Both the position numbers and the translations under genes were made by a program. Shown piece after piece: positions 26,374 through 42,284 of a DNA stretch of 42,582 bases (positions are counted from its first letter, which is position 1; every line of letters starts with the position of its first letter). This DNA is from Dysgonamonadaceae bacterium (lineage in GTDB: Bacteria > Bacteroidota > Bacteroidia > Bacteroidales > Azobacteroidaceae), in contig JAISUN010000138.1 in the NCBI GenBank assembly GCA_031272085.1, positions 1 to 42,582 of the forward strand, given 5' to 3'. The notes under the pieces are model-generated. The model made no database searches and had not been told where the DNA came from. It was given only the letters and a program-made list of their open reading frames with translations.

Positions 26374-27528
26374 TTATCCCAAGAATCCCAGCAAGACGCC
26401 GGCAGCCACAGCCGAGCCGATAACTCCGGCTACATTCGGCCCCATTGCGTGCATCAAGAGGTAGTTCGAGGAATCGTATTCCAGACCTACAACCTGCGAA
26501 ATACGCGCCGAGTCGGGAACGGCCGATACTCCGGCGTTTCCGATAAGCGGGTTGATTTTGTTGTCTTTCGACATAAAAAGGTTGAAGAATTTCACAAACA
26601 GCACGCCGGCAGCCGTCGCAATGACGAACGACATGGCGCCAAGTCCGAAAATCTTTACCGAATCCCATGTCAGGAACTGGGTTGCCTGCGTAGAGGCTCC
26701 AACGGTAATTCCGAGCAGCATCGTGATTGTATCAACCAGCGGGCCGCGGGCTGTTTCGGCCAATCGGCGGGTAACGCCCGATTCTTTCAGCAGGTTGCCG
26801 AAGAAGAGCATACCGAGCAGCGGAAGTCCCGAAGGCACGAGGAAACAGGTCAAAAGCAGTCCGAAGATGGGGAAAAGGATTTTTTCGGTCTGCGAAACTA
26901 CTCTTGGCGGTTTCATACGGATAAGGCGTTCCTTTTTGGTTGTCAGCAAACGCATTATAGGCGGCTGTATCACAGGCACTAATGCCATATAGGAGTAGGC
27001 CGAAATGGCGATTGCTCCCATCAGGTTAGGCGCTAATTTCGAGGAAAGGAAGATAGCGGTGGGGCCGTCGGCGCCTCCGATGATGCCGATTGCGCCGGCC
27101 TGATTCGGCTCAAATCCCATTGTGAGGGCGATGATATAGGCGCCGAAAATGCCGAACTGGGCGGCGGCTCCGATAAGCATCAACTTCGGGTTTGAAATCA
27201 GGGCGGAAAAGTCGGTCATCGCCCCTATTCCGAGGAATATTAGCGGCGGATACCATCCCGATGTAACTCCTTGATACAGAATATTCAGCACTGAACCTTC
27301 CTCGTAGATTCCGAGTTTCAGACCGGCGTCTTTGAAAGGAATATTTCCTATCAGGATGCCGAATCCGATTGGAATCAGAAGCATAGGTTCAAACTCTTTG
27401 GCGATAGCCAGATAAATGAAGAGCAATCCGACCAGAATCATTATGCCGTGTCCCAACGTGATATTGTCGAAGCCGGTATAAGTCCAGAATGTTGCGAGAT
27501 TGTCGCCCAAAAACGAGAAAAAGTCCAT
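26374..27528 (-). CDS. oadB: Sodium-pumping decarboxylase, beta subunit
   Basis: A 384-residue integral membrane protein of the OadB/MmdB family with about ten helices. It decarboxylates the carboxybiotin of the carrier protein and couples this to Na+ export. The signature GIIGGADGPTAIFLSSKLAP lies at residues 148-167, with the conserved Asp154 in the position of the Na+-binding aspartate; a second conserved-looking stretch is the C-terminal NYLLMHAMGPNVAGVIGSAVAAG. It starts four bases after the biotin carrier gene and is the last gene of the operon. Confidence 0.95.
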   Translation of the reverse strand: MDFFSFLGDNLATFWTYTGFDNITLGHGIMILVGLLFIYLAIAKEFEPMLLIPIGFGILIGNIPFKDAGLKLGIYEEGSVLNILYQGVTSGWYPPLIFLGIGAMTDFSALISNPKLMLIGAAAQFGIFGAYIIALTMGFEPNQAGAIGIIGGADGPTAIFLSSKLAPNLMGAIAISAYSYMALVPVIQPPIMRLLTTKKERLIRMKPPRVVSQTEKILFPIFGLLLTCFLVPSGLPLLGMLFFGNLLKESGVTRRLAETARGPLVDTITMLLGITVGASTQATQFLTWDSVKIFGLGAMSFVIATAAGVLFVKFFNLFMSKDNKINPLIGNAGVSAVPDSARISQVVGLEYDSSNYLLMHAMGPNVAGVIGSAVAAGVLLGFLG

Positions 27529-27532
27529 AATT

Positions 27533-27949
27533 TTATCCTATTATTACGAGGTCCGCACCTTCGAGGATGGAATCTCCCTTGTTTACTTTTACTTCCTTTA
27601 CTGTGCCGTCGCGGTCGGAATTGATTGCGTTTTCCATTTTCATTGCTTCGAGGACAAACAGTTTCTGACCTTTCTTCACGGCGTCGCCTGCCTTGCAGTT
27701 TACTTCGAGGATTATTCCGGGCAGCGGCGATTTTATTGCGCCTGCGCCGGAAGTGGTCTGCGGACGGGCAACCGGCGGGGTTGTCGTCTGCACCGGCCGT
27801 TTAATGGTAACCACCTGTTTCTTGGTCGGCTTGGCCATCTCTACCTTGTAGGGCGTTCCGTTGACCTCAACGTCGGCGATGGTATCTTCTATCGTGTTTA
27901 TAACTACCTTATAAACATTTCCGTTGATTGTATATTTAAAACTTTTCAT
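27533..27949 (-). CDS. Biotin carboxyl carrier subunit
   Basis: A 138-residue carrier protein. An N-terminal beta region (about 1-40) is joined by a Pro/Thr-rich flexible linker (about 45-70) to a biotinyl domain. The biotinylation site is EAMKM with Lys104. The lysine carries CO2 from the carboxyltransferase (MmdA) to OadB. Gene position between the OadG-type and OadB-type genes supports the gamma/delta role in a methylmalonyl-CoA decarboxylase complex. Biotin ligase is not in this window. Confidence 0.95.
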   Translation of the reverse strand: MKSFKYTINGNVYKVVINTIEDTIADVEVNGTPYKVEMAKPTKKQVVTIKRPVQTTTPPVARPQTTSGAGAIKSPLPGIILEVNCKAGDAVKKGQKLFVLEAMKMENAINSDRDGTVKEVKVNKGDSILEGADLVIIG

Positions 27950-27975
27950 ATAATTTGTTTTCTTGTTTTATTATT

Positions 27976-28938
27976 TTAACTCTTTACCGGCGTGTGCCTC
28001 AATGTGTAAATCTTGGAACTCCAAGGACTGTAACTGCTTGCGCTCTTCTTGATAGTAAGAATGGTGTGTTCTTCGTCGTGAAGTTCGGTGGCTTCGTAAA
28101 TCGCCATCGAGATGGCGGCTATCACTTCGCCCGACTGTTCGGCTACGCCTTTTGCTTCTTCGCTGCTCAATCCGGAAGATTTCATTACGCGGCGGTGGCT
28201 CAAATATACGGCTATTTTGCCTATCATCCTGAATATCAGGAACAAAAGCAGCAATCCGGAAAATACCACGCCCATTGCGGTAATTGTCATACCGGCTCCT
28301 CGGCTGTCGTTTTCCTTGAAATTTTCGATTTTCTCGTTTGTATCAAGGATTCTGTTGTTGGAACTCGGCGTTACGTAGCGGCCGTCGTTTACTTTGTCGT
28401 CGAAATAGACCCACAGTTTGTTTCCGCCCTTGTAAAGCGGATTGAGGCGCAATTCTTCGTCGAGGCGTTTTTGCGTCCATCCGTCTTCGATAAGGCCATA
28501 ACTTACATCGGCACGCTGTCCGGCCGGCACTGTGATTGAGTCAATCAGCGTACTGCCGTCGGAATCGAACAGGGCGATAAAGTTGGCATTTTCGGGCGAG
28601 AGGGTAAAGTTCAAGTGGAAAGTTCCGCGCGAGGGTATCCCGTCAGCCCAGAAAAGTGCGTGCTGGCGCGGTTTTATCTGCGTCAGGACGTCGCCTTTCG
28701 GAATCATATATTTCTTCGGCTTTTTGAGGTCGTCGGTCAGGTAGCAGCCGGCGACATTGACGGTTCCGGGCGAGGCGTTGTAAAGTTCAATCCACGAGTG
28801 CCGGGAACCGTAATCGTCAACAAAATTATCTTCGTTGACAACCAGGATTTCGTTTATTTTCATCGAGGTTGTGCGCTGCGCCTGCAAGCCGAAGGCGAGA
28901 AACAGCAGCGACAAACCTGTTATCAGTTTATGTTTCAT
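27976..28938 (-). CDS. OadG-type subunit fused to a periplasmic lamin-tail domain
   Basis: A 320-residue protein with an unusual build. A signal peptide (residues 1-20, ending GLQAQ) is followed by a lamin-tail-like (LTD) beta domain at about 26-150; its marks are KINEILVVNE, WIELYNAS, CYLTDD, HALFWADG and HLNFTLSPE. After a linker, one transmembrane helix (about 216-238) leads into a short cytoplasmic tail like that of OadG, the small membrane-anchor subunit of Na+-pumping decarboxylases. The normal OadG is only about 80-100 residues long. The predicted topology puts the LTD in the periplasm and the tail inside. It sits between mmdA (two-base gap) and the biotin carrier, which fixes its role in the complex. 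Confidence 0.85.
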   Translation of the reverse strand: MKHKLITGLSLLFLAFGLQAQRTTSMKINEILVVNEDNFVDDYGSRHSWIELYNASPGTVNVAGCYLTDDLKKPKKYMIPKGDVLTQIKPRQHALFWADGIPSRGTFHLNFTLSPENANFIALFDSDGSTLIDSITVPAGQRADVSYGLIEDGWTQKRLDEELRLNPLYKGGNKLWVYFDDKVNDGRYVTPSSNNRILDTNEKIENFKENDSRGAGMTITAMGVVFSGLLLLFLIFRMIGKIAVYLSHRRVMKSSGLSSEEAKGVAEQSGEVIAAISMAIYEATELHDEEHTILTIKKSASSYSPWSSKIYTLRHTPVKS

Positions 28939-28940
28939 AA

Positions 28941-30494
28941 TTATAATGGCAGATTATCGTGTTTTTTAGGCGGATTTACCTGCTTTTTGGCGGCTAACTG
29001 CTGCAAAGCGCGGATAATGCGGAAGCGGGTATTGCGGGGTTCGATAACGTCGTCGATATATCCGTATTTTGCTGCATTATAGGGATTTGCAAAAGCCTTT
29101 GTGTATTCGGCTTCGCGTTCGGCCAAAACTTTTGCCGGGTCGTCCGATTCTTTTGCTTCCTTGGCGTAGAGGACTTCCACTGCGCCTGCGCCGCCCATAA
29201 CTGCGATTTCGGCAGTAGGCCAAGCGTAGTTCATATCGCCGCGCAACTGCTTGCAACTCATCACGATATGCGCTCCGCCGTAGGATTTGCGCAAGGTTAC
29301 GGTAACTTTCGGAACGGTGGCTTCGCCGTAGGCATAAAGCAGTTTGGCTCCGTGGGTGATTACGCCGCCGTATTCCTGTCCTGTGCCGGGGAGGAATCCG
29401 GGAACGTCAACCAAGGTAACGATAGGAATATTGAAAGCGTCGCAGAAGCGCACAAACCGTGCGGCTTTGCGCGAAGCGTTGATGTCGAGTACGCCGGCCA
29501 AGGTTTTCGGCTGATTGGCAACGATGCCCACCGAGCGTCCGTTGAAGCGGGCGAAGCCGACGATGATATTTTTTGCGAAATCGGCGTGAACTTCCAAAAA
29601 TTCGCCCTTGTCGATGATTGCGCCAATCACTTCGTACATATCGTAGGGGCGGTTGGGGCTGTCGGGGATTATTTCGTTCAGAGAATCTTCCAGACGGTCA
29701 ATCGGGTCGGAATTTTCCACCATTGGCGGTTCTTCGAGGTTGTTCTGCGGCAAATATGAGAGCAGGCGGCGGATAAGCGCGATGCCGTCTTCGCCGCTTT
29801 CGACTACGAAATGCGAAACTCCCGAACGGCCTCCGTGTACTTCGGCGCCTCCGAGTTGTTCCTGCGTAACGTCTTCGCCGGTAACGGTTTTCACAACTTT
29901 CGGGCCGGTCAAAAACATATAACTGATGCCCTTTGCCATAATAGTAAAGTCGGTCAATGCGGGCGAATAAACCGCTCCGCCTGCGCAGGGGCCGAAGATT
30001 CCCGAAATCTGGGGAATAACGCCCGAAGCAAGGATATTGCGCTGGAATATTTCGGCATATCCGGCCAAAGCGTTTACGCCTTCCTGGATACGCGCACCGC
30101 CCGAGTCGTTAAGTCCGATAACCGGGGCGCCCATCATCATGGCCAAATCCATCACTTTGCAGATTTTTTGCGCCATCGTTTCCGAAAGCGAACCGCCGAT
30201 TACGGTAAAATCCTGGGCAAAAATATAGACCAAACGGCCGTCTATCGTGCCATAGCCCGTTACTACGCCGTCGCCCAAAAACTGCTTCTTTTCCATGCCG
30301 AAGTTGTGGCAACGATGCTGGACAAACATATCCAGTTCTTCAAAACTTCCCTCGTCCACCAGCATTTCGATTCGCTCGCGGGCAGTGTGTTTTCCCTGTG
30401 CGTGTTGTTTGTCGATGGCTTTTTCGCCGCCGCCGAGGCGGGCTTGCGCCCGAAGGTCGATAAGTTCTTTGACTTTTTCTAACTGATTGCTCAT
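28941..30494 (-). CDS. mmdA: Methylmalonyl-CoA decarboxylase / propionyl-CoA carboxylase carboxyltransferase subunit
   Basis: A 517-residue acyl-CoA carboxyltransferase with two crotonase-fold halves. It moves CO2 between (S)-methylmalonyl-CoA or propionyl-CoA and carboxybiotin. Family marks are [18 protein letters not shown] near residue 35, the [19 protein letters not shown] and [12 protein letters not shown] blocks, and the C-terminal-half [18 protein letters not shown] and [21 protein letters not shown]. With OadB, the carrier and the OadG-like subunit it forms a decarboxylase; the same subunit type is also used in carboxylases, so direction is not fixed by sequence. The epimerase gene just upstream supports methylmalonyl-CoA as substrate. 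Confidence 0.93.
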
Positions 30495-30509
30495 ATTTTT
30501 AAATAGATG

Positions 30510-30911
30510 TTAATTACAACATAATTCTGTCAATACGCCTTTGGTCGATTTCGGGTGCAGGAAAGCGATGTTGAGGCCTTCGGCGCCGCCGCGCGGGGCT
30601 TTGTCTATCAACTGAACGCCTTTCGATTCGGCTTCGGCGAGCGAAGCGGCGACGTCCTTTACCGCAAAAGCGACGTGATGAACTCCTTCGCCCCGTTTTT
30701 CGATAAACTTTGCGATGGTAGAATCTTCGGAAGTCGGCTCCAAAAGTTCGATTTTAGTTTGACCGACCTTGAAGAAGGCGGTTTTAACTTTCTGGTCGGC
30801 TACTTCTTCTATGTTGTAGCATTTCAGACCGAGTACATTTTCGTAGTAGGGGAGGCTGTCAGCAATGCTTTTAACGGCGATTCCCAGATGTTCGATATGA
30901 GAAATATCCAT
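30510..30911 (-). CDS. mce: Methylmalonyl-CoA epimerase
   Basis: A 133-residue vicinal-oxygen-chelate protein. It converts (R)- to (S)-methylmalonyl-CoA in the succinate-propionate pathway. The metal ligands expected for the family are visible: His8 (SHIEHLGIAV), His79 (GVHHVAF) and Glu129 (GVLTEL). It is the first gene of the operon, 15 bases before mmdA, and its promoter is divergent from that of hypC. Methylmalonyl-CoA mutase is not in this window. Confidence 0.94.
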   Translation of the reverse strand: MDISHIEHLGIAVKSIADSLPYYENVLGLKCYNIEEVADQKVKTAFFKVGQTKIELLEPTSEDSTIAKFIEKRGEGVHHVAFAVKDVAASLAEAESKGVQLIDKAPRGGAEGLNIAFLHPKSTKGVLTELCCN

Positions 30912-31104: not shown

Positions 31105-31350
31105 ATGTGTTTGGCAATACCCGGAAAAATATTATCCATCGACGCTTCGGTTCCCGAACTGAAAATGGCGCGGGTTGATTTTGGCGGCGTCATCAAGAAC
31201 GTTTGCGTGCAGTGGCTCGAATCGGTCGGCGAAGGCGATTATATCCTCGCCCACGCCGGAATGGCCATCTCGCAGGTCGATGAACAGCACGCGCAACAAA
31301 CCCTCGCCGACTTCGAGGCTATCGCTCAATCGCTTGAAACTCAACAGTAA
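31105..31350 (+). CDS. hypC: Hydrogenase maturation chaperone HypC
   Basis: An 81-residue HypC. The N-terminus MCLAIPGKIL is diagnostic: after Met removal, Cys2 holds the Fe(CN)2CO unit that is built with HypD and delivered to the large-subunit precursor. The remaining beta-barrel (VDFGGVIKNVCVQW, GDYILAHAGMAIS) fits the family. The stop overlaps the hypD start by one base (TAATG), so expression is coupled. Confidence 0.95.
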   Translation: MCLAIPGKILSIDASVPELKMARVDFGGVIKNVCVQWLESVGEGDYILAHAGMAISQVDEQHAQQTLADFEAIAQSLETQQ

Positions 31351-32444
31351 TGCAGTATATCGACGAATACCGCGACAGCGGCCGTATCAAGGCGCTTGCA
31401 GAAGCCATTGAGCGCGAAGCCCTTCATCCATGGCAAATTATGGAAATTTGCGGCGGACAGACGCATACTATCGCAAAATACCGGCTCGAAGAAATGCTTC
31501 CGCCTTCCGTCCGCCTGCTCCACGGCCCTGGTTGTCCTGTGTGCGTAACTCCTTCGTCCATAATTGATTTTGCGCTGGAAATCGCCAGGCAAAGCAATGT
31601 TATTTTTACTTCTTTCGGCGATATGCTCCGCGTCCCCGGCAGCAAGGCCGACCTTTTGCAGACAAAAGCCCGCGGAGCCGACATCAGGATTCTGTATTCG
31701 CCGCTGGATGCGGTAAATTTGGCCGCGGGCAATCCCGACCGCGAGGTGGTTTTTTTCGCTGTCGGCTTCGAGACGACCGCTCCCGTCCATCTTACGGCTC
31801 TGAAAGAGGCGGAACGCCGCGGACTGAAAAATTTTTCGCTGCTCTGTTCGCTGTTTGCCGTTCCTCCGGCAATAGAAATGCTTATGAATCAAGAAGATAA
31901 TGCTATCGATGGCTTTCTGGCGGCCGGCCACGTCTGCGCGGTAACAGGCAACAGCGACTACCGCGTTTTGACCAAAAAATACCATTGTCCGATAGTTGTT
32001 ACCGGTTTTGAACCGGCCGACCTGCTTTACGGCATTTATTTGTGTATCAAGCAGTTGGAAAGCGGACGCTCCGAACTCGAAAATGCCTATAAGCGTGCAG
32101 TTCCGGAAAACGGCAATCCCGCCGCCCGCCGCCTGATGGACGAATGTCTCGAAGCGGCCGGTCGCGAATGGCGGGGAATAGGCGCGATTCCCGAAAGCGG
32201 TTTTATTTTAAGGAAAAAATATGCCGGTTTCGACGCTTCCGAAAAATTCGGATTTTTGAAAAACAAAAAAAATCTTATTATCGAAAACGCTGACAATCAA
32301 TGTATTGCCGGCAAGATAATGAAAGGCGCGGCCGCAGTTTCCGACTGCCCGTTTTTTGGCGGCCTCTGCTCGCCCGAACACCCCGTCGGCGCTCCAATGG
32401 TCTCTGACGAAGGAGTTTGCGCGGCATTTTTTAAGTACAGGTAA
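31350..32444 (+). CDS. hypD: Hydrogenase maturation protein HypD
   Basis: A 364-residue HypD, the scaffold with a [4Fe-4S] cluster on which the Fe(CN)2CO cofactor is assembled with HypC. Cys34 in MEICGGQTHT and Cys62/Cys65 in HGPGCPVCVTP match the conserved residues that bind the iron of the cofactor precursor and act in redox. VIFTSFGDMLRVPGS and FFAVGFETTAP are other typical blocks. It overlaps hypC by one base and is followed by hypE after 15 bases. Confidence 0.96.
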   Translation: MQYIDEYRDSGRIKALAEAIEREALHPWQIMEICGGQTHTIAKYRLEEMLPPSVRLLHGPGCPVCVTPSSIIDFALEIARQSNVIFTSFGDMLRVPGSKADLLQTKARGADIRILYSPLDAVNLAAGNPDREVVFFAVGFETTAPVHLTALKEAERRGLKNFSLLCSLFAVPPAIEMLMNQEDNAIDGFLAAGHVCAVTGNSDYRVLTKKYHCPIVVTGFEPADLLYGIYLCIKQLESGRSELENAYKRAVPENGNPAARRLMDECLEAAGREWRGIGAIPESGFILRKKYAGFDASEKFGFLKNKKNLIIENADNQCIAGKIMKGAAAVSDCPFFGGLCSPEHPVGAPMVSDEGVCAAFFKYR

Positions 32445-32459
32445 AAAAACAAGAAATAT

Positions 32460-33503
32460 ATGGATTTTTCAGCAAATTGTCCCCTACCCTTTTCCGCTTC
32501 CGACCGCGTTCTTCTCGGACACGGCAGCGGCGGGCGGCTTTCGCATCAACTGATTAGCGAAATTTTTTATCCGGCCTTTGCAAATCCGCTCTTGGAGCAG
32601 GACCACGACGGCTGCGTTTTTCCGGTTGAAAAAGGCCGCTTGGCCTGCTCGACCGATTCGTTTGTCGTGAATCCCGTATTTTTTCCGGGCGGAAATATCG
32701 GCGATTTGGCTGTCAATGGCACGGTTAACGACCTTGCCTGCTGCGGAGCGCTTCCAAAATACTTGACGGCCGGGTTTATCCTCGAAGAAGGCTTGCCCCT
32801 GGCTGATTTGCAAAAAATAACGCTTTCGATGCAGGAAGCCGCCCTGAAAGCGGGAGTCAGCATCATTGCCGGCGACACGAAAGTTGTAGAGCGCGGGCAG
32901 TGCGACCGGATTTTCATCAACACGAGCGGGATAGGATTTGTTCCCGACGGCGTCGAAATTGCGCCTGCGAAAGCCGCTCCCGGCGACGCCGTTATTTGCA
33001 GCGGACAGATTGGAACTCACGGAATTACGATTTTGTCGGCACGCGAAAGTCTGGGATTTGAAACCGCGCTGAAAAGCGATACCGCTCCGCTGAATCATCT
33101 TATAAGCCGCTTGCTGGCCGAGATTCCCGATATTCATGTACTGCGCGACCCGACGCGGGGCGGAGTTGCCACTACGCTGAACGAAATAGCCCGCTCGGCG
33201 AATGTCGGAATCACGCTCGACGAGGCGCTGTTGCCCATTCCCGAAGCCGTAAAGGCAGCCTCTGAAATCCTTGGCCTCGAACCGCTTTACATTGCCAACG
33301 AAGGTCTTGTGCTTGTCATTTTGCCTGAAAATAAGGCAGTTAAAGCCGTTGAAATAATGCGCCGGTTCGACGAAGGCCGGGACGCAGCCGTTATCGGCCG
33401 CATAGATTCGGCCGGAAAAGCGCAGGTCAGGCTGAAAACCATTTACGGCGGCCACCGCATAATTTCGATGCTTGCAGGGGCGCAACTGCCACGGATTTGC
33501 TGA
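32460..33503 (+). CDS. hypE: Hydrogenase maturation protein HypE
   Basis: A 347-residue HypE, a PurM-like ATPase that dehydrates the carbamoyl group, placed on its C-terminal cysteine by HypF, to give the cyanide ligand. The C-terminal PRIC motif with Cys347 is intact. Other family marks are LGHGSGGRL near residue 19, STDSFVVNPVFFPGGNIGDLAVNGTVNDLA, and DPTRGGVATTLNEIA. HypF, needed to supply the carbamoyl group, and HypA/HypB are not in this window and must be elsewhere. The gene ends 235 bases before the hydrogenase, which has its own promoter. Confidence 0.96.
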   Translation: MDFSANCPLPFSASDRVLLGHGSGGRLSHQLISEIFYPAFANPLLEQDHDGCVFPVEKGRLACSTDSFVVNPVFFPGGNIGDLAVNGTVNDLACCGALPKYLTAGFILEEGLPLADLQKITLSMQEAALKAGVSIIAGDTKVVERGQCDRIFINTSGIGFVPDGVEIAPAKAAPGDAVICSGQIGTHGITILSARESLGFETALKSDTAPLNHLISRLLAEIPDIHVLRDPTRGGVATTLNEIARSANVGITLDEALLPIPEAVKAASEILGLEPLYIANEGLVLVILPENKAVKAVEIMRRFDEGRDAAVIGRIDSAGKAQVRLKTIYGGHRIISMLAGAQLPRIC

Positions 33504-33649: not shown

Positions 33650-33680
33650 TTTGATTCTAAAAATAAAATCATTACATTTG
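33650..33680 (+). promoter_or_regulatory. Main promoter of the hydrogenase operon
   Basis: TTTG (33650-33653), a 19-base spacer and TACATTTG (33673-33680) match the consensus fully. The spacer contains a TGATT / AATCA inverted repeat (33652-33656 and 33667-33671), a position where a regulator could bind. The transcript start would be near 33687, which rules out nothing downstream but leaves about 50 bases before the ATG at 33739. Confidence 0.65.
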
Positions 33681-33738: not shown

Positions 33739-34824
33739 ATGGAACACAAGAAATTAACAGTTTATGAGGATTGCCTCAAAAAAGGCGTATCCCGTCGTGA
33801 TTTCCTGAAATTCTGCGCGTCAATGGCCGCCCTTCTCGGTCTGGAATCGACCGGAGTGGCGCAGGTAGTCGAGGCGTTGGAAAAGAAATCGCGCCTGCCG
33901 ATTATCTGGCTGCATTTTCAGGAATGTACCTGTTGCAGCGAATCGTTTGTCCGCACTTCGCACCCGATTTTGGCTTCCCTGCTCTTCGACAGCATTTCGC
34001 TTGATTACGACGAAACTTTGATGGCCGCTTCGGGCGAACAGGCCGAAAAATGCTTGCACGACACTATGGCAAATTCAAAAGGCGAGTATATCCTTATGAT
34101 TGAAGGCTCGGTGCCGACGAAAAACGAGGCCTACTGCTGCATTGGCGGCCGCAGCGCCCTGCAAATCGTGAAAGAAGCCGCAGCCGGAGCCAAAGCGGTT
34201 ATCGCGTGGGGCAACTGCGCTTCGTCGGGCTGCGTTCAGGCTGCAAATCCCAATCCTACAGGCGCCAAGCCGGCAAAAAAAGTCATCAGCGGCAAGCCGA
34301 TAATCAACGTTCAGGGTTGCCCGCCCATTGCCGAAGTTATGGCAGGGGTAGTGGTTCATCTGCTCACTTTCGGCACAATCCCGCAATTAGACGGGCTTGG
34401 CCGGCCGAAAGCCTTCTATTCGCGCCGCGTCCACGATTCGTGCTACCGCCGCGCCAACTTCGATGCAGGCCTGTTTGTCGAGAGTTTCGACGACGAAAAC
34501 GCCCGCAAAGGCTACTGTCTTTACAAAATCGGATGCCGCGGGCCTTCGACCTACAACTCTTGCGGCATAATAAAATGGAACGAAGGCACGAGTTACCCGA
34601 TTCAGAGCGGACATCCCTGCCTGGGGTGCAGCGAAGAAGGATTCTGGGACAACACGCCGTTCTACGAACGCCGGCCTGCACTCAACGCTTTCGGCATCGA
34701 GGCTACCGCCGACCAGATAGGATTGGCCGTTGGAGCGGCAACCGCCGTCGGCATTGCGGCTCACGCCGTGGCAACCAACATCCGCAAAAAGGATTTGATT
34801 GAAAACGAGGCAGAACCCGCATAA
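33739..34824 (+). CDS. hyaA: [NiFe] hydrogenase small subunit, Tat-exported, six-cysteine (O2-tolerant) type
   Basis: A 361-residue small subunit of a membrane-bound group 1 hydrogenase. A Tat signal (SRRDFLKFCASMAALLGL, residues 18-35) directs folded export. The proximal cluster has the four usual cysteines Cys63, Cys66, Cys160 and Cys194 plus two extra ones, Cys65 (ECTCCSES) and Cys165 (NCASSGC). These extra residues mark the [4Fe-3S] cluster of O2-tolerant enzymes such as E. coli Hyd-1; Glu122 (IEGSVP) aligns with the Hyd-1 Glu that also binds this cluster. The distal and medial cluster regions (HDSCYRR, KGYCLYKIGC, GHPCLGC) are present. A C-terminal hydrophobic helix (about 326-346) anchors it. 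An in-frame TTG at 33727 is an unlikely start. Confidence 0.95.
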   Translation: MEHKKLTVYEDCLKKGVSRRDFLKFCASMAALLGLESTGVAQVVEALEKKSRLPIIWLHFQECTCCSESFVRTSHPILASLLFDSISLDYDETLMAASGEQAEKCLHDTMANSKGEYILMIEGSVPTKNEAYCCIGGRSALQIVKEAAAGAKAVIAWGNCASSGCVQAANPNPTGAKPAKKVISGKPIINVQGCPPIAEVMAGVVVHLLTFGTIPQLDGLGRPKAFYSRRVHDSCYRRANFDAGLFVESFDDENARKGYCLYKIGCRGPSTYNSCGIIKWNEGTSYPIQSGHPCLGCSEEGFWDNTPFYERRPALNAFGIEATADQIGLAVGAATAVGIAAHAVATNIRKKDLIENEAEPA

Positions 34825-34860: not shown

Positions 34861-36579
34861 ATGTCAGAAAGAATAGTTGTTGACCCAATAACCCGTATTG
34901 AAGGTCATTTAAGAATAGAAGCAGAAATTGAAAACGGGAAAATCAAGGACGCATTCAGTTCGGGAACCATGGTGCGTGGCATCGAAAACATTGTCCGCGA
35001 CCGCGACCCCCGCGATGTGTGGGCTTTTGTAGGCCGCGTCTGCGGAGTTTGCACCTCGATGCACTCGCTGACCTCGGTTCGCGCCGTAGAAAACGCGCTC
35101 GGAATAACGATTCCTCAAAACGCAGAATTGGTGCGCAACATAATGTTAGCCACCATTTATATGCACGACCACGTTGTGCATTTCTATCATCTGCACGCCC
35201 TCGACTGGGTTGATGTAGTTTCGTCGCTCAAAGCCGACCCTGCCGCGGCTTCGGCTGCCGCCCAAAAACTGTCGAACTGGCCGAACAGTTCCGAAGGCTA
35301 TTTCCGCGACATTCAAAACCGCGTGAAAAAGTTCGTCGAAAGCGGACAACTCGGCATTTTTGCCAACGGATACTGGGGACATCCGGCTTACAAATTAAGT
35401 CCGGAACAGAATCTCGTGGCCGTCGCCCACTACTTGGAAGCCTTGGAATGGCAACGCCAGATAGTGAAAGTTCAAACGGTTTTTGGAGGGAAAAACCCGC
35501 ATCCGAACTACGTTGTAGGCGGTATGCCGGCAAGCATAAACCTCGACGAGGCCAATGCCATAAACGCCGAACGCCTCGCTTTTGTCCGCAAACTGTTGGA
35601 AGAAGCAAAAACCTTTGTTGACCAGGTATATATCCCCGATTTGCTGATGATTGCCGGCGTTTACAAAGACGAATGGGGAAAAATCGGCGGCGGAGTAAGC
35701 AATTACCTTGCTTACGGCGATTTTCCGACAAACGGATACAACGATTTCGAGAATTACCTGATGCCGCGCGGAATAGTCCTGAACCGCGATTTGAGCAAGG
35801 TACATCCCGTTGACGCCGGTTCGCCGGACGAAATCAAGGAATATATCTACCACTCGTGGTACGAATACGAAAAAGGCAAACAGGCCGGGCTTCATCCTTT
35901 CGAGGGCGAAACAAAACTCAACTATACCGGCCCTAAACCGCCTTACGAGCATTTGGACATCGAAAAAGAATACAGTTGGGTTAAAACTCCGCGCTGGAAA
36001 GAACAGGCTATGGAAGTCGGCCCGCTATCGCGCCTACTGGTAGCCTACGCCGCCGGCAAAGAACCGCAGAAATCGCTGATTGACAGCGTTCTCGCCCAAC
36101 TGAACCTGCCTGCCGAAGCACTTTTCTCGACACTCGGACGCACAGCCGCCCGCGGACTGGAAACAAAACTCATAGCCGACTGGGCATTAGAGTTTTACGA
36201 CCAACTTGTAGAAAACCTGAAAAGCGATTCCCGAATGGTAAATCACGAAAACTGGGACGAATCGAAATGGGCGAAAACCGCACAGGGATTCGGATTGAGC
36301 GAAGCCCCGCGCGGCGCTCTGGCTCACTTCGTGAAAATCGAAAACAGCAAGGTCAAGAACTATCAAATGGTAGTTCCGACGACATGGAACGGCTCGCCAC
36401 GCGACGAACTCGGCAACCTTTCCGCTTTCGAGGCATCGCTGATTGGCACTCCGGTTCACGACCCCAAACTGCCGCTCGAAATCCTGCGCACGATTCACTC
36501 ATTCGACCCCTGTCTGGCCTGCGCCGTACATCTTTACGATGAAAAGGGCGATTACGTTCATCAAACGGAAACATTTTGA
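34861..36579 (+). CDS. hyaB: [NiFe] hydrogenase large subunit
   Basis: A 572-residue large subunit carrying the Ni-Fe active site. The N-terminal ligand motif is RVCGVC (Cys61, Cys64) and the C-terminal one is DPCLACAVH (Cys551, Cys554, His557). A 15-residue C-terminal extension follows His557 and should be cut off by a HyaD/HybD-type endopeptidase after nickel insertion; that protease is not encoded in this window. VDPITRIEGHLRIE and GHLxxE-type blocks at the N-terminus fit group 1. With the Tat signal on the small subunit the pair should be exported together to the periplasmic face, where H2 is oxidised. It starts 36 bases after hyaA. Confidence 0.97.
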   Translation: MSERIVVDPITRIEGHLRIEAEIENGKIKDAFSSGTMVRGIENIVRDRDPRDVWAFVGRVCGVCTSMHSLTSVRAVENALGITIPQNAELVRNIMLATIYMHDHVVHFYHLHALDWVDVVSSLKADPAAASAAAQKLSNWPNSSEGYFRDIQNRVKKFVESGQLGIFANGYWGHPAYKLSPEQNLVAVAHYLEALEWQRQIVKVQTVFGGKNPHPNYVVGGMPASINLDEANAINAERLAFVRKLLEEAKTFVDQVYIPDLLMIAGVYKDEWGKIGGGVSNYLAYGDFPTNGYNDFENYLMPRGIVLNRDLSKVHPVDAGSPDEIKEYIYHSWYEYEKGKQAGLHPFEGETKLNYTGPKPPYEHLDIEKEYSWVKTPRWKEQAMEVGPLSRLLVAYAAGKEPQKSLIDSVLAQLNLPAEALFSTLGRTAARGLETKLIADWALEFYDQLVENLKSDSRMVNHENWDESKWAKTAQGFGLSEAPRGALAHFVKIENSKVKNYQMVVPTTWNGSPRDELGNLSAFEASLIGTPVHDPKLPLEILRTIHSFDPCLACAVHLYDEKGDYVHQTETF

Positions 36580-36590
36580 ATTACAGCAAG

Positions 36591-37325
36591 ATGAATACAC
36601 GAGAAAAAAATCTGTCAGCCGTTTACGTCTGGGAATTGCCGGTAAGGTTTTTCCACTGGGTAAACGCAGTCTGCATCGTAATCCTCTGTATAACAGGATT
36701 TTTGATAGGCGACCCGCCCGCTATTATGAGCGGCAACGAAGCATTTTACGGATTCTGGTTCGGCAAAATCCGGTTGATACATTTTATCACGGCTTTCATC
36801 TTCCTGTTCAACTTCGCTTTCCGCATCTACTGGGGCTTTGCGGGCAACAAATATGCGAGTTGGAAAAACTTCATCCCCTACCGCAAGGAACAGTGGCAAG
36901 AACTGCTCGACGTGCTGAAAGTCGATATTATGATGATTAAGAAAAAGCCTGTCGAAAGCATCGGGCATAATGCAATGGCGTCGCTCATCTATTTTGCTCT
37001 GTTTTGGGCTTTTGCGCTGCAATGTCTGACCGGATTCGGGCTTTACGCACAGATGAGCAAGGCCTTTTTGCCTCACCTTTTTGCGTGGGTTGTTCCCCTG
37101 TTCGGCGGCGACCTGATGGTGCGCTATATTCATCATTTTCTGATGTGGTTTTTCATCCTCTTCGCCATAGTCCACGTATATTTGGTTTTTTACCACGATT
37201 ATATTGAACGTCGTGGCGTAACATCCTCAATAATAGGCGGATGGAAATTTGTAGAAAACGAAGTTTTGAAAGAAGAAGACGCGAAGGAAAAGAAAATCGG
37301 GAAAAAAAAGGAAACGGGTAAATAG
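36591..37325 (+). CDS. hyaC: Ni/Fe-hydrogenase b-type cytochrome subunit
   Basis: A 244-residue membrane cytochrome b of the HyaC/HydC family with four main helices. It accepts electrons from the small subunit and passes them to quinone. Candidate haem-ligand histidines lie in RFFHWVN, RLIHFITAF and YIHHFLMWFF...VHVYLVFYHDY. The C-terminus is a highly charged Lys/Glu tail. The open frame can be extended to a TTG at 36576 that overlaps the hyaB stop, but the ATG at 36591, 12 bases after hyaB, gives the normal N-terminus. It is the last gene of the operon before a terminator. Confidence 0.93.
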   Translation: MNTREKNLSAVYVWELPVRFFHWVNAVCIVILCITGFLIGDPPAIMSGNEAFYGFWFGKIRLIHFITAFIFLFNFAFRIYWGFAGNKYASWKNFIPYRKEQWQELLDVLKVDIMMIKKKPVESIGHNAMASLIYFALFWAFALQCLTGFGLYAQMSKAFLPHLFAWVVPLFGGDLMVRYIHHFLMWFFILFAIVHVYLVFYHDYIERRGVTSSIIGGWKFVENEVLKEEDAKEKKIGKKKETGK

Positions 37326-37456: not shown

Positions 37457-39538
37457 ATGAAGCATATATATTCGGTACTTATCGTTTTTTTTACAGCAAC
37501 TAATTTTTTATTGGCCGAGGGCGATACGGATTCGCTTTCGCGTCGGCAAATCCATTTGGATGAGGTTGTAGTTCAATCATTTAAATACGGAAAAGATTTT
37601 GCAAAACTTCCGCTGGCTGCAACGACAATCGACGCCTCAACTATCGAAAATCAGCAAATTCGCACGGTCAAGGAGGCCGTTGCGCTCATACCCAACCTTT
37701 TTATGCCCGATTACGGTTCGCGGCTCACTTCGCCGGTTTACATACGCGGAATCGGCTCCAAAATCAACTCCCCTTCGGTGGGGCTTTATGTCGATGGAAT
37801 CCCGTATTTCGAGAAATCTTCCTTCGATTTCGACCTCAACGAGATAGACTTCATCGAAGTCCTTCGCGGCCCGCAAGGCGCTCTGTACGGACGAAATACT
37901 ATGGGCGGACTGATTAACGTGATTACCCGCTCTCCGCTGATTTTTCGTGGAACTTCGGCGGCGGCCGATTACGGCAATTATGACAATATGAGCGGCCAAA
38001 TTTCTCATTTCGGAGGCAATAAAAACAACACTTTCGGATACGCCGTTTCGGGCAGTTATAGCCATTTGGGCGGATATTTCACAAATATTTTTACCGGCAA
38101 AAAAGCCGACGAACTGAACTCCGGCAACGCCCGCGTCCGCCTCGACTGGCGCGTGAAGCCCAACCTCACAATGAGGCTTATTTCCTCGCTCGATGCGCTG
38201 AATCAGGGCGGTTATCCATATTCTGCGCTGGATTCGCTCAACCGGACAACGCCGGTAAACTACAACGATTACAGTTCCTACGCCAGAACTATCTCGTCAA
38301 GCGGATTTACGGTAATTTATACCACCGACCGTTTCAGCCTCAACAGCCAGACGGCATATCAGTATCTGTCGGATGACCAGCGGATTGACCAGGATTTTTC
38401 GACGGCAAACCAGTATTTCGCCATTCAAAAACAGAAGCAATCAACTGTATCACAGGAACTTACAATAAAATCGCACAATTTTTCGCCTTACAAATGGCTT
38501 TTCGGAGCGTTTTTCTTTCATCAATCCATTGATAATGAGGTGATTTTAGAATATAAAATACCAAATTATTCGACCGATAAACTCTACAATATGCCTACTA
38601 CCGGATTTTCGGCATATCATCAGTCCGTTTTCGACAACCTGCTTGTAAAGAGGCTTTCCGCCACGCTCGGCCTGCGATACGACTACGAGCGTGCCAACTA
38701 CGACTACGCCGCTTACCGCGACACGACCGGACGGCACGACCGGACGGACGCATTTTACAGCACAATGAATTTCGGGCAATTAACGCCGAAAATTGCTCTG
38801 CAATACGCCTTTACGCCGAAAAACAACATCTATCTGTCCGTCGCAAAAGGTTATAAAACAGGCGGTTTCAATACTTCGTTTGCTAATGAGGAAGACCGCT
38901 CATTTGAGCCTGAATACAGTTGGAATTACGAAATCGGGACAAAACTCAAATTCTTTGACGACCGCTTGCAGGCCGACTTTTGCCTGTTTTATATCGACTG
39001 GCGGAAGCAGCAGATTTACCAACCATTGCCGTCGGGAATAGGCCAGATGCTGAAAAATGCCGGCCGTTCCGAAAGCAGGGGCGCCGAGGCCTCGCTGTCG
39101 GCCAAAATCCTTAAAAACCTTTATTTTCAGGCGAATTGGGGCTATACTCACGCCGTTTTCAAAGATTACCAAAAAGATGCGAATACAAATTATTCGGGAA
39201 ATTTCCTGCCTTTTGTGCCTCGACAAACCATAACAGCAGCAGTAGATTATACGATTCCTGTTTTGAAGCGGCAATTCGACCGTATCGCCCTGAATATCAA
39301 CTACTCCGGAGTTGACCGCCTCTACTGGAACGAAGATAATGCCATAAAAGAGCCATATTACGGGCTGCTTAACGGCAAACTGTCTGTGGACAAGGGTTTG
39401 CTCGGATTTTCGGTTTGGGCGAAAAACATACTTTGCGAAGATTATTTAGCCTATTATTTTGAATCGATGAAAACACGGTTTGTTCAGAAAGGAAAACCTT
39501 TCACGGCAGGCATAACATTAAGAGTTTCAATAAATTAA
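37457..39538 (+). CDS. TonB-dependent outer-membrane receptor, siderophore type
   Basis: A 693-residue receptor. A signal peptide (residues 1-20) is followed by a TonB-box-like DEVVV (35-39), then a plug domain. Typical plug blocks are VKEAVALIPNLF, YIRGIGSK, VGLYVDGIPYF, and EVLRGPQGALYGRNTMGGLINVITR. The rest is a barrel. It lacks the carboxypeptidase-like N-terminal domain of SusC proteins and has no SusD neighbour, so it resembles iron-siderophore or cofactor receptors. The next gene, an RhtX/FptX-like permease, begins after two bases. I infer siderophore or similar small-molecule uptake; the ligand is unknown. Confidence 0.9.
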   Translation: MKHIYSVLIVFFTATNFLLAEGDTDSLSRRQIHLDEVVVQSFKYGKDFAKLPLAATTIDASTIENQQIRTVKEAVALIPNLFMPDYGSRLTSPVYIRGIGSKINSPSVGLYVDGIPYFEKSSFDFDLNEIDFIEVLRGPQGALYGRNTMGGLINVITRSPLIFRGTSAAADYGNYDNMSGQISHFGGNKNNTFGYAVSGSYSHLGGYFTNIFTGKKADELNSGNARVRLDWRVKPNLTMRLISSLDALNQGGYPYSALDSLNRTTPVNYNDYSSYARTISSSGFTVIYTTDRFSLNSQTAYQYLSDDQRIDQDFSTANQYFAIQKQKQSTVSQELTIKSHNFSPYKWLFGAFFFHQSIDNEVILEYKIPNYSTDKLYNMPTTGFSAYHQSVFDNLLVKRLSATLGLRYDYERANYDYAAYRDTTGRHDRTDAFYSTMNFGQLTPKIALQYAFTPKNNIYLSVAKGYKTGGFNTSFANEEDRSFEPEYSWNYEIGTKLKFFDDRLQADFCLFYIDWRKQQIYQPLPSGIGQMLKNAGRSESRGAEASLSAKILKNLYFQANWGYTHAVFKDYQKDANTNYSGNFLPFVPRQTITAAVDYTIPVLKRQFDRIALNINYSGVDRLYWNEDNAIKEPYYGLLNGKLSVDKGLLGFSVWAKNILCEDYLAYYFESMKTRFVQKGKPFTAGITLRVSIN

Positions 39539-39540
39539 CA

Positions 39541-40752
39541 ATGGATAAAACAAAAAATCTGGCGACATTTTTCTGCCTTTATATAGCGCAGAGCATTCCG
39601 ATGAGTTTTTTCTCTACCGTAATCCCTGTAATGATGCGGCAAGAGCATTTTTCGCTCACGCAAATCGGGTTGCTGCAACTGATGAAACTGCCCTGGATAG
39701 TGAAATTCCTCTGGTCGCCGCTTATCGACCGCCATTCGGTAACGGTAAACGATTACAAACGCTGGATTTTTTCGTCGGAACTTTTTTATGCCGTTATCAT
39801 TTTTGCGGTGGCTTTTTTGCAGTTCAAGACTAATTTTCCGCTGATTTTGACGTTGGTAATCATCTCTTTCATCGCCTCGGCCACACAGGATATTGCGACC
39901 GACGCTATGGCCGCGCTTTCGTTCCGCCGCGAGGATAAGAGCCTGATTAACAGTGTACAATCAATGGGAAGTTTCGGCGGTTCGCTTGTCGGAAGTGGCA
40001 TTTTACTCTTGCTTTTCAAGCAAATCGGGTGGAATATGATTTTGCCTTGCGTTGCGCTGTTTGTGCTGATTGCGGTCGTTCCGCTCTATTTCAACCGCAG
40101 CATCAGGATTGAGAAAAGCGCCGAAAAATCGGAGCGGGCGAGTATTCGCGATATACTTAACTTCTTCGTACAGAAAGGAATAGGCAAACAAATCGGCTTT
40201 TTAGCGCTCTATTATTCGTCGATGATTGGAACGCTGGCAATGCTTCGCCCCTGGCTTGTCGATTTGGGATACAGTATGAAAGAAATCGGGCAAATGAGCG
40301 GGATTTTCGGCACTGCAACCGGCCTGATTGCCGCATTTGCAGGCGGTTTTCTTATAAAGAAAATCGGACGCGGACATTCCAGAATCCTGTTTGCATTTCT
40401 GATAATGCTCACGACATTTTATTTCTGGTATATGTCCACAAACGCACATCCCGACATCCAACTTTTGTATCTCGGAATCGTCTTGTTATGGGGAAGTTAC
40501 GGAATGGCCTCGGTAGCGGTTTACACTCTGGCGATGGATTTTGTGCGCCCCGGACGCGAAGGCACCGACTTTACGATACAGATAGTGATAACCCATTTGA
40601 GCGGGATTTTCATTTCCACCCTTGGCGGTCATATTGCCGACAAAACCAACTATACGACGCTGTTTCTGTTCGAGTTCGGCCTTGCCTGCCTGTCGTTCGT
40701 CTATATTCTGACGGTTTTTAAGCGGCCTCCGGGACATCCGGGACACAAATAA
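39541..40752 (+). CDS. MFS permease, RhtX/FptX (AmpG-like) type
   Basis: A 403-residue protein with about 12 hydrophobic helices. The N-terminal half includes QSIPMSFFSTVIPVMMRQ and the helix 2-3 loop KLPWIVKFLWSPLIDR, a pattern shared by AmpG-like and RhtX/FptX siderophore permeases. SATQDIATDAMA follows. RhtX/FptX transport ferric-siderophores across the inner membrane in one polypeptide. The tight coupling with a TonB receptor gene favours this over a muropeptide (AmpG) role, but the sequence alone does not decide. It converges with the lipoprotein gene at 40761 with only eight bases between. Confidence 0.8.
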   Translation: MDKTKNLATFFCLYIAQSIPMSFFSTVIPVMMRQEHFSLTQIGLLQLMKLPWIVKFLWSPLIDRHSVTVNDYKRWIFSSELFYAVIIFAVAFLQFKTNFPLILTLVIISFIASATQDIATDAMAALSFRREDKSLINSVQSMGSFGGSLVGSGILLLLFKQIGWNMILPCVALFVLIAVVPLYFNRSIRIEKSAEKSERASIRDILNFFVQKGIGKQIGFLALYYSSMIGTLAMLRPWLVDLGYSMKEIGQMSGIFGTATGLIAAFAGGFLIKKIGRGHSRILFAFLIMLTTFYFWYMSTNAHPDIQLLYLGIVLLWGSYGMASVAVYTLAMDFVRPGREGTDFTIQIVITHLSGIFISTLGGHIADKTNYTTLFLFEFGLACLSFVYILTVFKRPPGHPGHK

Positions 40753-40760
40753 TCCGCCTT

Positions 40761-42284
40761 TTACTGCACCTTTTTCCCCAGCGCCAGCCAATAATTGGTA
40801 TAATTGCTCATACTGTTGGTCAGCGTAACAGCAAGTTTGCCGTCATTGCCAAATACAAGCGTAAAACGTTCTGTATGAGGAGTTTCAATGTATTTTAGAT
40901 TTAATGTAAGCGTTGCGCTGTCGGTAAAACAATAGGTTCCAAACACATTGAAAGAATTAAACTCGCTGAATGCCGCTTCGTTAGGGGCAAGATTCGGCGC
41001 CGGACGGTCGGTTTCGCCCTTTACCCAGTTTTCCCGTCCGAATTTCAGCGTGTAATTATTCCATTGCATAATGCAGGTATCCTGCTCGAAATGCAGCGAT
41101 AAATCAATATTTTTTGTTTTACCATCCGCAGCGGTAAACGTGTATGAACCTTCGCCGAAAGGCTGAATCGTGTTTCCGCATTTCGGAGGCGCGATTTTCA
41201 ACGATGCGAGCCTCTGTTTCAGCGCATCGGATGTGGCTTTATCTTCGGGCAGGCTTTCGGGTTTTATGGCTGGAAGCAGGTAATCCCAAACAATGTTCAG
41301 TTCCTTTTGCATATCCATAACTTCGGCCTGAACAGCCAGCACCGCATCGAGTTCCGGCATCACGATAATATACTGTCCGTAAGCGCCGTCGGCGCGATAA
41401 GCATTATTTCGGCACCGCCACATTTGATAGCAGTAGCCCTGCGCCCAGTCGTCCGTAGCCCGCTGTTCATCAGTTATTTCCGGTTTTTGCAGGATATGGG
41501 CGCTTGTAGCCTCTTCAATCCACGATTCGGGCAAGAGTTGGCGGCCGTTCCATTTTCCTTTTTGAAGATAAAGTTGGCCGAGTTTGGCCATATCTTCGGT
41601 TTTGACGCGCAATCCCCAGCCGCCGGTATTGATGCTGTCGGGCGAAATTTCCCATTCTGCGCCTTCTATTCCAAGAGGTTGAAACAGGCGGGGAGTGAGG
41701 TAATCGAGCAGGCGTTGACCGGTAACTTTCTGAATGATAGCCGATAGCATATAAGTCGCCATCGAGTTGTAATTAAACACCGTACCCGGTTCATATTTTA
41801 CCGGAAAATCCAGAAATCCTTTTGCCCAGCCGGTTCCCTGCCGCGATGGTTCGCTTTCCTGACCGGTAGCCATCGAAAGCAGATTTTTTATGCTCATTTG
41901 CGCCAGATTGGACGAAACCGTATCGGGAAGCAAATCGGGAAAAAAGGATACGACTTTGTCGTCAACTGACAGCAATTTTTCGCTTACTGCAAAGCCTATC
42001 GCCGTGGAAGTGAATGTTTTACTTGCCGAATAAACAGTTTGCCGATATTCGGGGCTAAACGGATTCCACCAGCCTTCGGCGACAATTTTTCCGTGCCTCA
42101 ACAGGACGAAACTGTGCCATTCCGCGCCGCTCTGTTCAACTGCGTCGAGGAAAGCGAGAATGTCTTTTGAGGAAACGCCCTGTTTTTCGGGTTCGCTTCG
42201 TTGCAAAGAGTCTGTATTTTTTTCTCTGTTGCAGGCACAGAGTAACAATGCAATACAGACAAGAGCGCCAATAATGTTTTTCAT
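40761..42284 (-). CDS. Beta-lactamase-fold serine hydrolase lipoprotein
   Basis: A 507-residue exported protein. The signal peptide ends in a lipobox with Cys18 (LCA-C). Residues about 35-350 form a class C beta-lactamase / family VIII esterase-like domain with the nucleophile motif SASK (Ser86, Lys89) in VYSASKTFTSTAIGF and a tyrosine motif in FNYNSMATYMLSAII. A C-terminal domain of about 140 residues is mostly beta and carries no motif I know. Members of this family include esterases, D-aminopeptidases and penicillin-binding homologues, so the substrate cannot be named. It has its own promoter, divergent from the restriction gene. Confidence 0.85.
   Translation of the reverse strand: MKNIIGALVCIALLLCACNREKNTDSLQRSEPEKQGVSSKDILAFLDAVEQSGAEWHSFVLLRHGKIVAEGWWNPFSPEYRQTVYSASKTFTSTAIGFAVSEKLLSVDDKVVSFFPDLLPDTVSSNLAQMSIKNLLSMATGQESEPSRQGTGWAKGFLDFPVKYEPGTVFNYNSMATYMLSAIIQKVTGQRLLDYLTPRLFQPLGIEGAEWEISPDSINTGGWGLRVKTEDMAKLGQLYLQKGKWNGRQLLPESWIEEATSAHILQKPEITDEQRATDDWAQGYCYQMWRCRNNAYRADGAYGQYIIVMPELDAVLAVQAEVMDMQKELNIVWDYLLPAIKPESLPEDKATSDALKQRLASLKIAPPKCGNTIQPFGEGSYTFTAADGKTKNIDLSLHFEQDTCIMQWNNYTLKFGRENWVKGETDRPAPNLAPNEAAFSEFNSFNVFGTYCFTDSATLTLNLKYIETPHTERFTLVFGNDGKLAVTLTNSMSNYTNYWLALGKKVQ

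Follow-up and report, generated by a model that had tools for sequence, protein, structure and literature searches.

A six-cysteine uptake [NiFe]-hydrogenase of Bacteroidales with glycine at the Glu73 position of its large subunit

Introduction

The membrane-bound hydrogenase (MBH) of Cupriavidus necator, HoxK-HoxG-HoxZ, is encoded on a megaplasmid and has six cysteines around its proximal cluster, a cytochrome b subunit, hyp genes nearby and a Glu at position 73 of HoxG. Hyd-1 of E. coli likewise has six cysteines; its genes are ordered hyaABC, and its large subunit has Glu73, Gly81 and Ala84. Group 1d hydrogenases of Parabacteroides have already been published from the human gut, in a source that describes their H2 metabolism as still to be investigated (PMC12578642), and a cockroach Dysgonomonas is described as transcribing an uptake hydrogenase (PMC10266427). 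According to one survey, six-cysteine enzymes are found in anaerobes too, in smaller numbers than four-cysteine ones (PMC4486115).

Glu73 is described as highly conserved in O2-tolerant enzymes, with Gln in sensitive ones (Bowman et al., PMC3940037). In Hyd-5, the same authors describe a hydrogen bond from Glu73 to the amide of residue 81 and loss of H2 oxidation in air by the E73A variant, and inhibition of this variant is still substantially reversible (Flanagan et al., PMC5040170). In Hyd-1, E73A has native-like activity and is more O2-sensitive; E73Q retains O2 tolerance and about doubles H2 production (Flanagan et al., PMC5040170). Accounts of E73A in the absence of O2 give native-like or minimally changed activity (PMC3940037, PMC4747160, PMC5040170). 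Residue 73 has been presented as part of a proton relay (Dance, PMC5811149), whereas Flanagan et al. (PMC5040170) assign it a role in hydrogen bonding and not in proton relay. Among 215 group 1d sequences, Glu is reported to prevail at position 73 without being universal, and Aquifex is reported to combine Gln at 73 with six cysteines (PMC6981441). The literature examined offers Ala and Gln variants of residue 73, but no mutant test of Gly.

Here we describe a hydrogenase locus from a Dysgonamonadaceae bacterium. The window, i.e. the whole stretch of 42,582 nucleotides that was analysed, is one contig of a 2.63-Mb genome that is 82% complete. The locus is like Cupriavidus MBH in its six cysteines, cytochrome b subunit and nearby hyp genes, and like Hyd-1 in its six cysteines, its hyaABC order and the presence of a HyaD-type protease in the genome. 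It is also like the Parabacteroides enzymes, which fall in the same clade, have a small subunit 78% identical to that of the window, share the order hypCDE-hyaABC and have Gly73 in four rows (L014, L016, L055, L119). Unlike HoxG and the large subunit of Hyd-1, that of the window has Gly-Ser-Ser at positions 73, 81 and 84.

Results

The small subunit has all six proximal cysteines

The hyaA-type reading frame begins with ATG and encodes 361 aa. A profile search found a Tat signal (TIGR01409, 22.8 bits, cut-off 16.7), and the C-terminal stretch is hydrophobic. A sequence-only reading had named Cys63, Cys65, Cys66, Cys160, Cys165, Cys194 and Glu122 in this protein, and the translation has exactly these residues. 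The window motifs ECTCC and CASSGC align without gaps with ECTCC and CASWGC of Cupriavidus HoxK (phmmer; 5mdj and 3rgw; E about 1e-127). In a 120-row alignment, both extra cysteines fall in the extra-cysteine columns of E. coli HyaA (L087); these two columns are Gly in E. coli HybO (L088). Both extra cysteines are present in 84 of 87 aligned rows, a count that includes the window and its own copies (L001, L002); hence, the six-cysteine reading is not due to chance.

Glu122 corresponds to Glu76 of Hyd-1, in the LAVE motif. It is present as claimed, but its inclusion in the diagnostic set is rejected, since the residue is conserved in four-cysteine relatives too: the column is Glu in 87 of 87 rows, including three four-cysteine enzymes, and also in L091, L113 and L118. 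The sole exception in the 120-row alignment is E. coli HybO, with Asp.

Among solved structures, the small subunit scores highest with HoxK (429 bits), followed by Hyd-1 (402) and the Allochromatium vinosum enzyme HydSL (3myr; 325), as judged by phmmer. Engineered HoxK variants score 419–424 bits; with these set aside, 3myr, which we take to be a four-cysteine enzyme, is the top natural match of that kind. However, the small subunit of L072, a four-cysteine Flavobacteriales enzyme, also prefers HoxK (412 bits) to 3myr (348), so a nearest-HoxK score is not specific for the six-cysteine type. The [4Fe-3S] cluster that had been proposed is thus a likely product, the nearest solved small subunits being those of O2-tolerant enzymes, but the score itself does not single it out. 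We infer that a [4Fe-3S] proximal cluster is very probably assembled on the six cysteines.

The locus is an uptake-hydrogenase operon with dispersed maturation genes

The gene order hypC-hypD-hypE-hyaA-hyaB-hyaC is that of an uptake-hydrogenase operon (Table 1), and the hypC stop codon overlaps the hypD start. The traits of a hyaABC-type uptake hydrogenase are present, namely the Tat signal and a cytochrome b subunit above its cut-off, with TatC elsewhere in the genome (contig C139). A putative promoter-like site lies 58 bases upstream of the hyaA ATG. Its pattern, TTTG-N19-TACATTTG, fits what we take to be the Bacteroidetes promoter consensus, and has 6 matches in the window against 1.14 expected by chance. 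The match of the hyaB-type product to mature solved chains stops at ...DPCLACAVH557, leaving a tail of 15 residues that is presumably removed by HyaD.

Table 1. Features of the hydrogenase locus, in coordinates of the window
Feature	Coordinates	Strand	Evidence
hypC, maturation chaperone, 81 aa	31105..31350	+	tblastn with P. distasonis HypC, 58% identity
hypD, active-site ligand assembly	31350..32444	+	TIGR00075, 463 bits, cut-off 193
hypE, cyanide ligand synthesis	32460..33503	+	TIGR02124, 437 bits, cut-off 252
Putative promoter-like site TTTG-N19-TACATTTG	33650..33680	+	pattern search
hyaA-type small subunit	33739..34824	+	TIGR00391, 472 bits, cut-off 179.5; cysteine columns
Codons Cys63-Thr64-Cys65-Cys66; Cys65 is the first extra cysteine (Hyd-1 Cys19)	33925..33936	+	translation, alignment
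Codons Cys160 to Cys165; Cys165 is the second extra cysteine (Hyd-1 Cys120)	34216..34233	+	translation, alignment
hyaB-type large subunit	34861..36579	+	PF00374, 772 bits; alignment
Codon of Gly58 (AFV-G-RVCGVC), at the Hyd-1/Hyd-5 Glu73 position	35032..35034	+	gap-free motif alignment with HyaB, HoxG, HybC
Codons Ser66 to Ser69; Ser66 is Hyd-1 position 81, Ser69 is 84	35056..35067	+	alignment, translation
hyaC-type cytochrome b, predicted electron exit to quinone	36576..37325	+	TIGR02125, 166 bits, cut-off 121.5

The remaining maturation genes are spread over the genome: hypA and hypF are on contig C20, and the HyaD-type protease gene is on contig C50 (L136:2606-3079). By reading of the sequence, the neighbours of hyaD on L136, outside the operon, resemble a DNA methyltransferase and a SulP transporter. 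In four operon carriers of the same genus, hyaD is directly 3ʹ of hyaC, where the window has a TonB-dependent receptor; in Parabacteroides, unlike the window, hyaD follows hyaC and hypB-hypA-hypF adjoin hypC. There was no match to hypB in the stretches examined. The HyaD family was found in 9 of 9 genome entries searched, as was HypF, with 8 above the cut-off; since entries G036 and G336 are one record, these are 8 distinct genomes, with HypF above the cut-off in 7.

The HyaF/HoxQ family (PF04809), a point of difference from Hyd-1, was found in none of 11 carrier genomes. HyaF is missing from carriers with Glu73 too, so its absence is no marker of the Gly type. HyaE, HyaF, HoxL, HoxO, HoxQ, HoxR and HoxT had no match in 34 stretches and HoxV had one, which sets the locus apart from Cupriavidus MBH and, for HyaE, from Hyd-1; some of these stretches are only 3–4 kb, and the result therefore covers neighbourhoods and not genomes.

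Adjoining hyaC, at 37457-40752, are genes for a TonB-dependent receptor and for a transporter that resembles RhtX/FptX but scores below the cut-off of that family; they possibly serve metal uptake. They are followed on the minus strand, at 40761-42284, by a beta-lactamase-fold protein that scores 369 bits with the 3-succinylated cholic acid synthase model (cut-off 800). The TonB receptor, the MFS transporter and the beta-lactamase-fold gene were considered as partners of the hydrogenase and rejected: searches of the other 33 stretches (E up to 1e-10) and of the four same-genus stretches gave no match to them. Divergent from hypC, on the minus strand at 26374-30911, lies a sodium-pumping methylmalonyl-CoA decarboxylase-like set with a methylmalonyl-CoA epimerase. 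The beta subunit matches PF03977; the other names are our assumption from sequence and general knowledge. These genes suggest a succinate-to-propionate fermentation beside the hydrogenase.

Both subunits belong to a Bacteroidales lineage

All trees are quick trees made without bootstrap. In the small-subunit tree, the window groups with its own genus (SH-aLRT 97), then in Bacteroidales clades of 21 rows (98) and 25 rows (98), apart from proteobacterial HoxK/HyaA. As judged by the small-subunit, combined and large-subunit trees, both subunits are placed within a Bacteroidales clade that also holds Dysgonomonas and Parabacteroides. Acquisition from another lineage, which had been suggested for this enzyme, is therefore not supported, nor is acquisition from another phylum; one row within the window's Bacteroidales clade, L022, is labelled Proteobacteria and is perhaps a mislabelled MAG. 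The small-subunit tree left out the window's own copies (L001, L002, L103) and the partial L118, L056 and L062; the combined tree left out HybO and HoxK, and columns 65, 165, 73, 81 and 84; the large-subunit tree, in which the trait columns were retained, was made without own copies, L141 and subunits no longer than 400 aa. The rows kept include four identical pairs (L005/L007, L008/L099, L013/L093, L021/L089).

The assignment to group 1d is not clear-cut. The small subunit is nearest to HoxK, by a score that is not specific, but the best solved match of the large subunit is 3myr (787 bits), presumably a group 1e enzyme, with 60% identity against 51% to HyaB. Few reference sequences were compared, and the fork between the proteobacterial 1d enzymes, 3myr and the clade that holds the window is unsettled in these trees. 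A four-cysteine branch with Gln73 (L118, L059, L072, L084; Flavobacteriales and the partial Bacteroidales L118) moves between trees, and adjoins the Gly clade in that of the large subunit.

Position 73 and its surroundings differ from those of known O2-tolerant enzymes

The large subunit of the window reads AFVGRVCGVC as compared with AFVERICGVC, an otherwise gap-free motif with Gly at the Glu73 position. The His beside the proximal cluster, His229, is kept in the motif GGKNPHPN, and is His in every row readable there; it is described as universal in [NiFe] enzymes (PMC3940037).

Among the 27 six-cysteine loci of the order sample, residue 73 is Gly in 20, Ala in 2, Ser in 1 and Glu in 4. Among the best 80 loci of a genome collection, the six-cysteine rows have 61 Glu, 11 Gly and 2 Gln, with 3 unread. 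All Gly/Ala/Ser73 rows retain both extra cysteines. Gln73 occurs in the four-cysteine L072 and L084, in E. coli HybC and in the partial L118, whereas L091 and L113 keep Glu. The latter two loci (L091, 884-1984; L113, 1486-2556) are from Bacteroidales and nest among six-cysteine rows, with Gly/Gly and Gly/Asn, respectively, at the extra-cysteine sites; they mirror in nature the C19G/C120G variant of Cupriavidus MBH that was made in the laboratory. Since six cysteines occur with Gly73 and four with Glu73, the two determinants separate in both directions.

The Gly/Ala/Ser rows form a single clade of 39 rows (SH-aLRT 99) in the combined tree, which lacks the trait columns; with these columns kept, the large-subunit tree also has a single clade, of 36 rows (92). 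The small-subunit tree implies two changes; however, a tree with one such clade is 10.4 log units better than that of the free search (AU p 0.65; HybO also left out of this test), and the combined tree unites both groups. Hence, we reject two origins of the Gly type.

The window's 25-row clade is separated from 69 Glu rows (23 and 67 distinct rows, respectively, two of the Glu rows, L091 and L113, being four-cysteine) at the 85% level by columns 73, 81, 84 and 515 of 489 large-subunit columns, and by none of 362 small-subunit columns, where an E. coli row replaced the Cupriavidus row. At the 75% level, eight large-subunit columns and one small-subunit column differ, not all of them near position 73. 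In the Gly/Ala/Ser clade, Glu73, Thr/Gly81 and Ala84 have changed to Gly/Ala/Ser73, mostly Ser81, and Ser/Gly84. In the alignment used for the column comparison, which lacks 3myr, every row with Glu or Gln at 73 has Ala84, and every Gly/Ala/Ser row has Ser84 or Gly84. This partition is not universal, as 3myr has Gln73 and Leu81 with Gly84, a combination that also differs from the Gly-Ser-Ser of the window. The change at positions 73, 81 and 84 is local and coordinated, and may reflect remodelling rather than drift, but a single origin makes the three changes one event, so this evidence is suggestive only. We found no description of the Gly/Ala/Ser73 patch in six-cysteine Bacteroidales enzymes in the open-access literature; the kind of enzyme and its presence in Bacteroidales are known.

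The enzyme is not a rare import, and many carriers have cytochrome bd

A hydrogenase of this family was found in 5 of 45 genomes of the family sample and, above the TIGR00391 cut-off, in 30 of 295 genomes of the order sample; the two samples overlap in some genomes. Both extra cysteines are present in 27 of the 30 order-sample carriers, i.e. in 27 of 295 genomes. The exceptions are L091 and L113, with neither, and L118, in which the first region is missing and the second site is Gly. In the genome collection, 77 of the best 80 loci have both. Together with the nesting in Bacteroidales and the published Parabacteroides enzymes, these numbers argue that the enzyme is not a rare import.

Among named organisms, its nearest relatives are MAGs of Dysgonamonadaceae, Bacteroidales, Tannerella, Prevotella and Tannerellaceae, Dysgonomonas sp. 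PF1-14, and Parabacteroides. The isolate codes of several of these MAGs resemble, we assume, those of termite-gut collections, on which the titles are silent; a Gly-type MAG, L023, is named after soil. Spread by plasmids was considered and rejected: of 126 matched plasmid records, only one exceeds 60% identity, the 57.7-kb P. distasonis record “plasmid 19” (L119). This record has housekeeping genes, guaA among them, beside the whole hydrogenase cluster, and is probably a chromosomal piece. We also rejected Tat as a limiting factor, since TatC is common (246 of 295 order genomes); it is present in 29 of 30 carriers and 217 of 265 others (p 0.04, in a test that treats genomes as unrelated).

Life at an oxic-anoxic boundary had been suggested for the organism. 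This suggestion is weakened, as neither cytochrome bd subunit I nor heme-copper oxidase subunit I was found in its genome, of which only 82% is covered; most other carriers have cytochrome bd. The search of the same genome also found neither a succinate dehydrogenase/fumarate reductase iron-sulfur subunit (matched in 10 of 11 carriers, in 1 above the cut-off) nor a second Oxidored_q6 protein such as NuoB; at 82% completeness, each of these absences is weak. Heme-copper oxidase was found in all 3 Glu-type carrier genomes searched but in none of the 8 of the Gly type, a contrast with p 0.006 only if the 11 genomes, which are related, were independent. Cytochrome bd is present in 6 of 8 Gly-type carriers, the other two being the window's own genome and G010, and in 3 of 3 Glu-type carriers. 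Its wide occurrence (26 of 30 order-sample carriers) means that many carriers can reduce O2, which argues against reading the clade as purely anaerobic. As a mark of carriers, cytochrome bd was rejected (26 of 30 against 187 of 265 others, p 0.08), as was a difference between six-cysteine and other carriers (25 of 27 against 1 of 3, p 0.04), where the numbers are too small; both tests treat genomes as unrelated. An [FeFe]-hydrogenase domain was not found in the window's own genome, nor in five more of the eight carriers searched.

Discussion

With the residues, the operon and the phylogeny as observed, and genes for HyaD, HypA, HypF and TatC elsewhere in the genome, we propose that the locus encodes a membrane-bound, quinone-reducing H2-uptake [NiFe]-hydrogenase of an anaerobe that has a [4Fe-3S] cluster and whose O2 tolerance is weaker than that of Hyd-1; we give this reading a probability of roughly 0.55. 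The small subunit would be exported by the Tat route, and the large subunit would be matured by the Hyp proteins and the HyaD-type protease. By analogy with the family, electrons would travel via three Fe-S clusters to cytochrome b, and from there to quinone. The six cysteines would form the [4Fe-3S] proximal cluster, within a shell that, with Gly for Glu73 and Ser at 81 and 84, is unlike that of known O2-tolerant enzymes. We expect the enzyme to be active mainly in anoxic or nearly anoxic conditions; the six-cysteine cluster would permit recovery after brief exposure to O2, and H2 oxidation in O2 would be sustained less well than by Hyd-1.

How much O2 can such an enzyme withstand? The sequence-only reading had taken the signature as a sign of O2 tolerance. 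The signature is real, but Glu73 is replaced by Gly, and E73A, though not E73Q, made two enzymes more O2-sensitive. With residue 73 replaced, O2 tolerance is not readable from the cysteines alone. Loss of Glu73 need not abolish tolerance, since E73Q is tolerant and Aquifex has Gln73 with six cysteines, and Ser81 and Ser84 may restore hydrogen bonds. If these serines replaced the hydrogen bonding of Glu73, the [4Fe-3S] cluster could still give the extra electrons, and a fully tolerant enzyme would burn H2 in low O2. This is rather unlikely in our view. It would account for the retention of both extra cysteines in 27 of 30 order-sample carriers and every Gly/Ala/Ser row, for the joint change of positions 81 and 84 with 73, and for cytochrome bd in 26 of 30 order-sample carriers and 9 of 11 searched genomes, and it accords with the tolerance of E73Q. 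However, it sits poorly with the sensitivity of E73A in two enzymes, with a genome in which neither terminal oxidase sought was found, and with the failure to find HyaF/HoxQ, or HyaE in the neighbourhoods examined.

The altered shell might instead act mainly on catalytic bias, so that the enzyme would be more reversible and release H2 too, or would tune uptake at high H2. This has a precedent in Hyd-1 E73Q, with H2 production about doubled and O2 tolerance unchanged, and the own genome and the five other carriers in which no [FeFe]-hydrogenase domain was found may have no other enzyme of this kind. Nonetheless, we consider it improbable: Gly is closer to Ala than to Gln, catalysis by Hyd-1 E73A is native-like, and the cytochrome b partner argues for uptake. 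It is very improbable that the six cysteines are a relic, in the process of being lost from an enzyme as O2-sensitive as the four-cysteine ones. L091 and L113, nested among six-cysteine rows without both extra cysteines, might be seen as steps in such a loss, but both keep Glu73, and the presence of both cysteines in all Gly/Ala/Ser rows argues for their continued use.

We tentatively suggest, as a possibility somewhat short of even, that this large Bacteroidales clade has uncoupled two features that are regarded as joint requirements for O2 tolerance: it has kept the six-cysteine [4Fe-3S] ligand set and rebuilt the link between the active site and the cluster. In these anaerobes, the cluster may then have a role other than to sustain activity in O2; alternatively, a different hydrogen-bond route may confer tolerance.

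The six-cysteine signature alone is often used to call hydrogenases O2-tolerant. In a lineage that is common among Bacteroidales and includes gut Parabacteroides, the signature occurs together with a change of the kind that weakens tolerance. This calls for caution, as the cysteines alone are insufficient for reading O2 tolerance, and it offers natural variants with which to ask if it is tolerance or catalytic bias that residue 73 determines, or neither of them.
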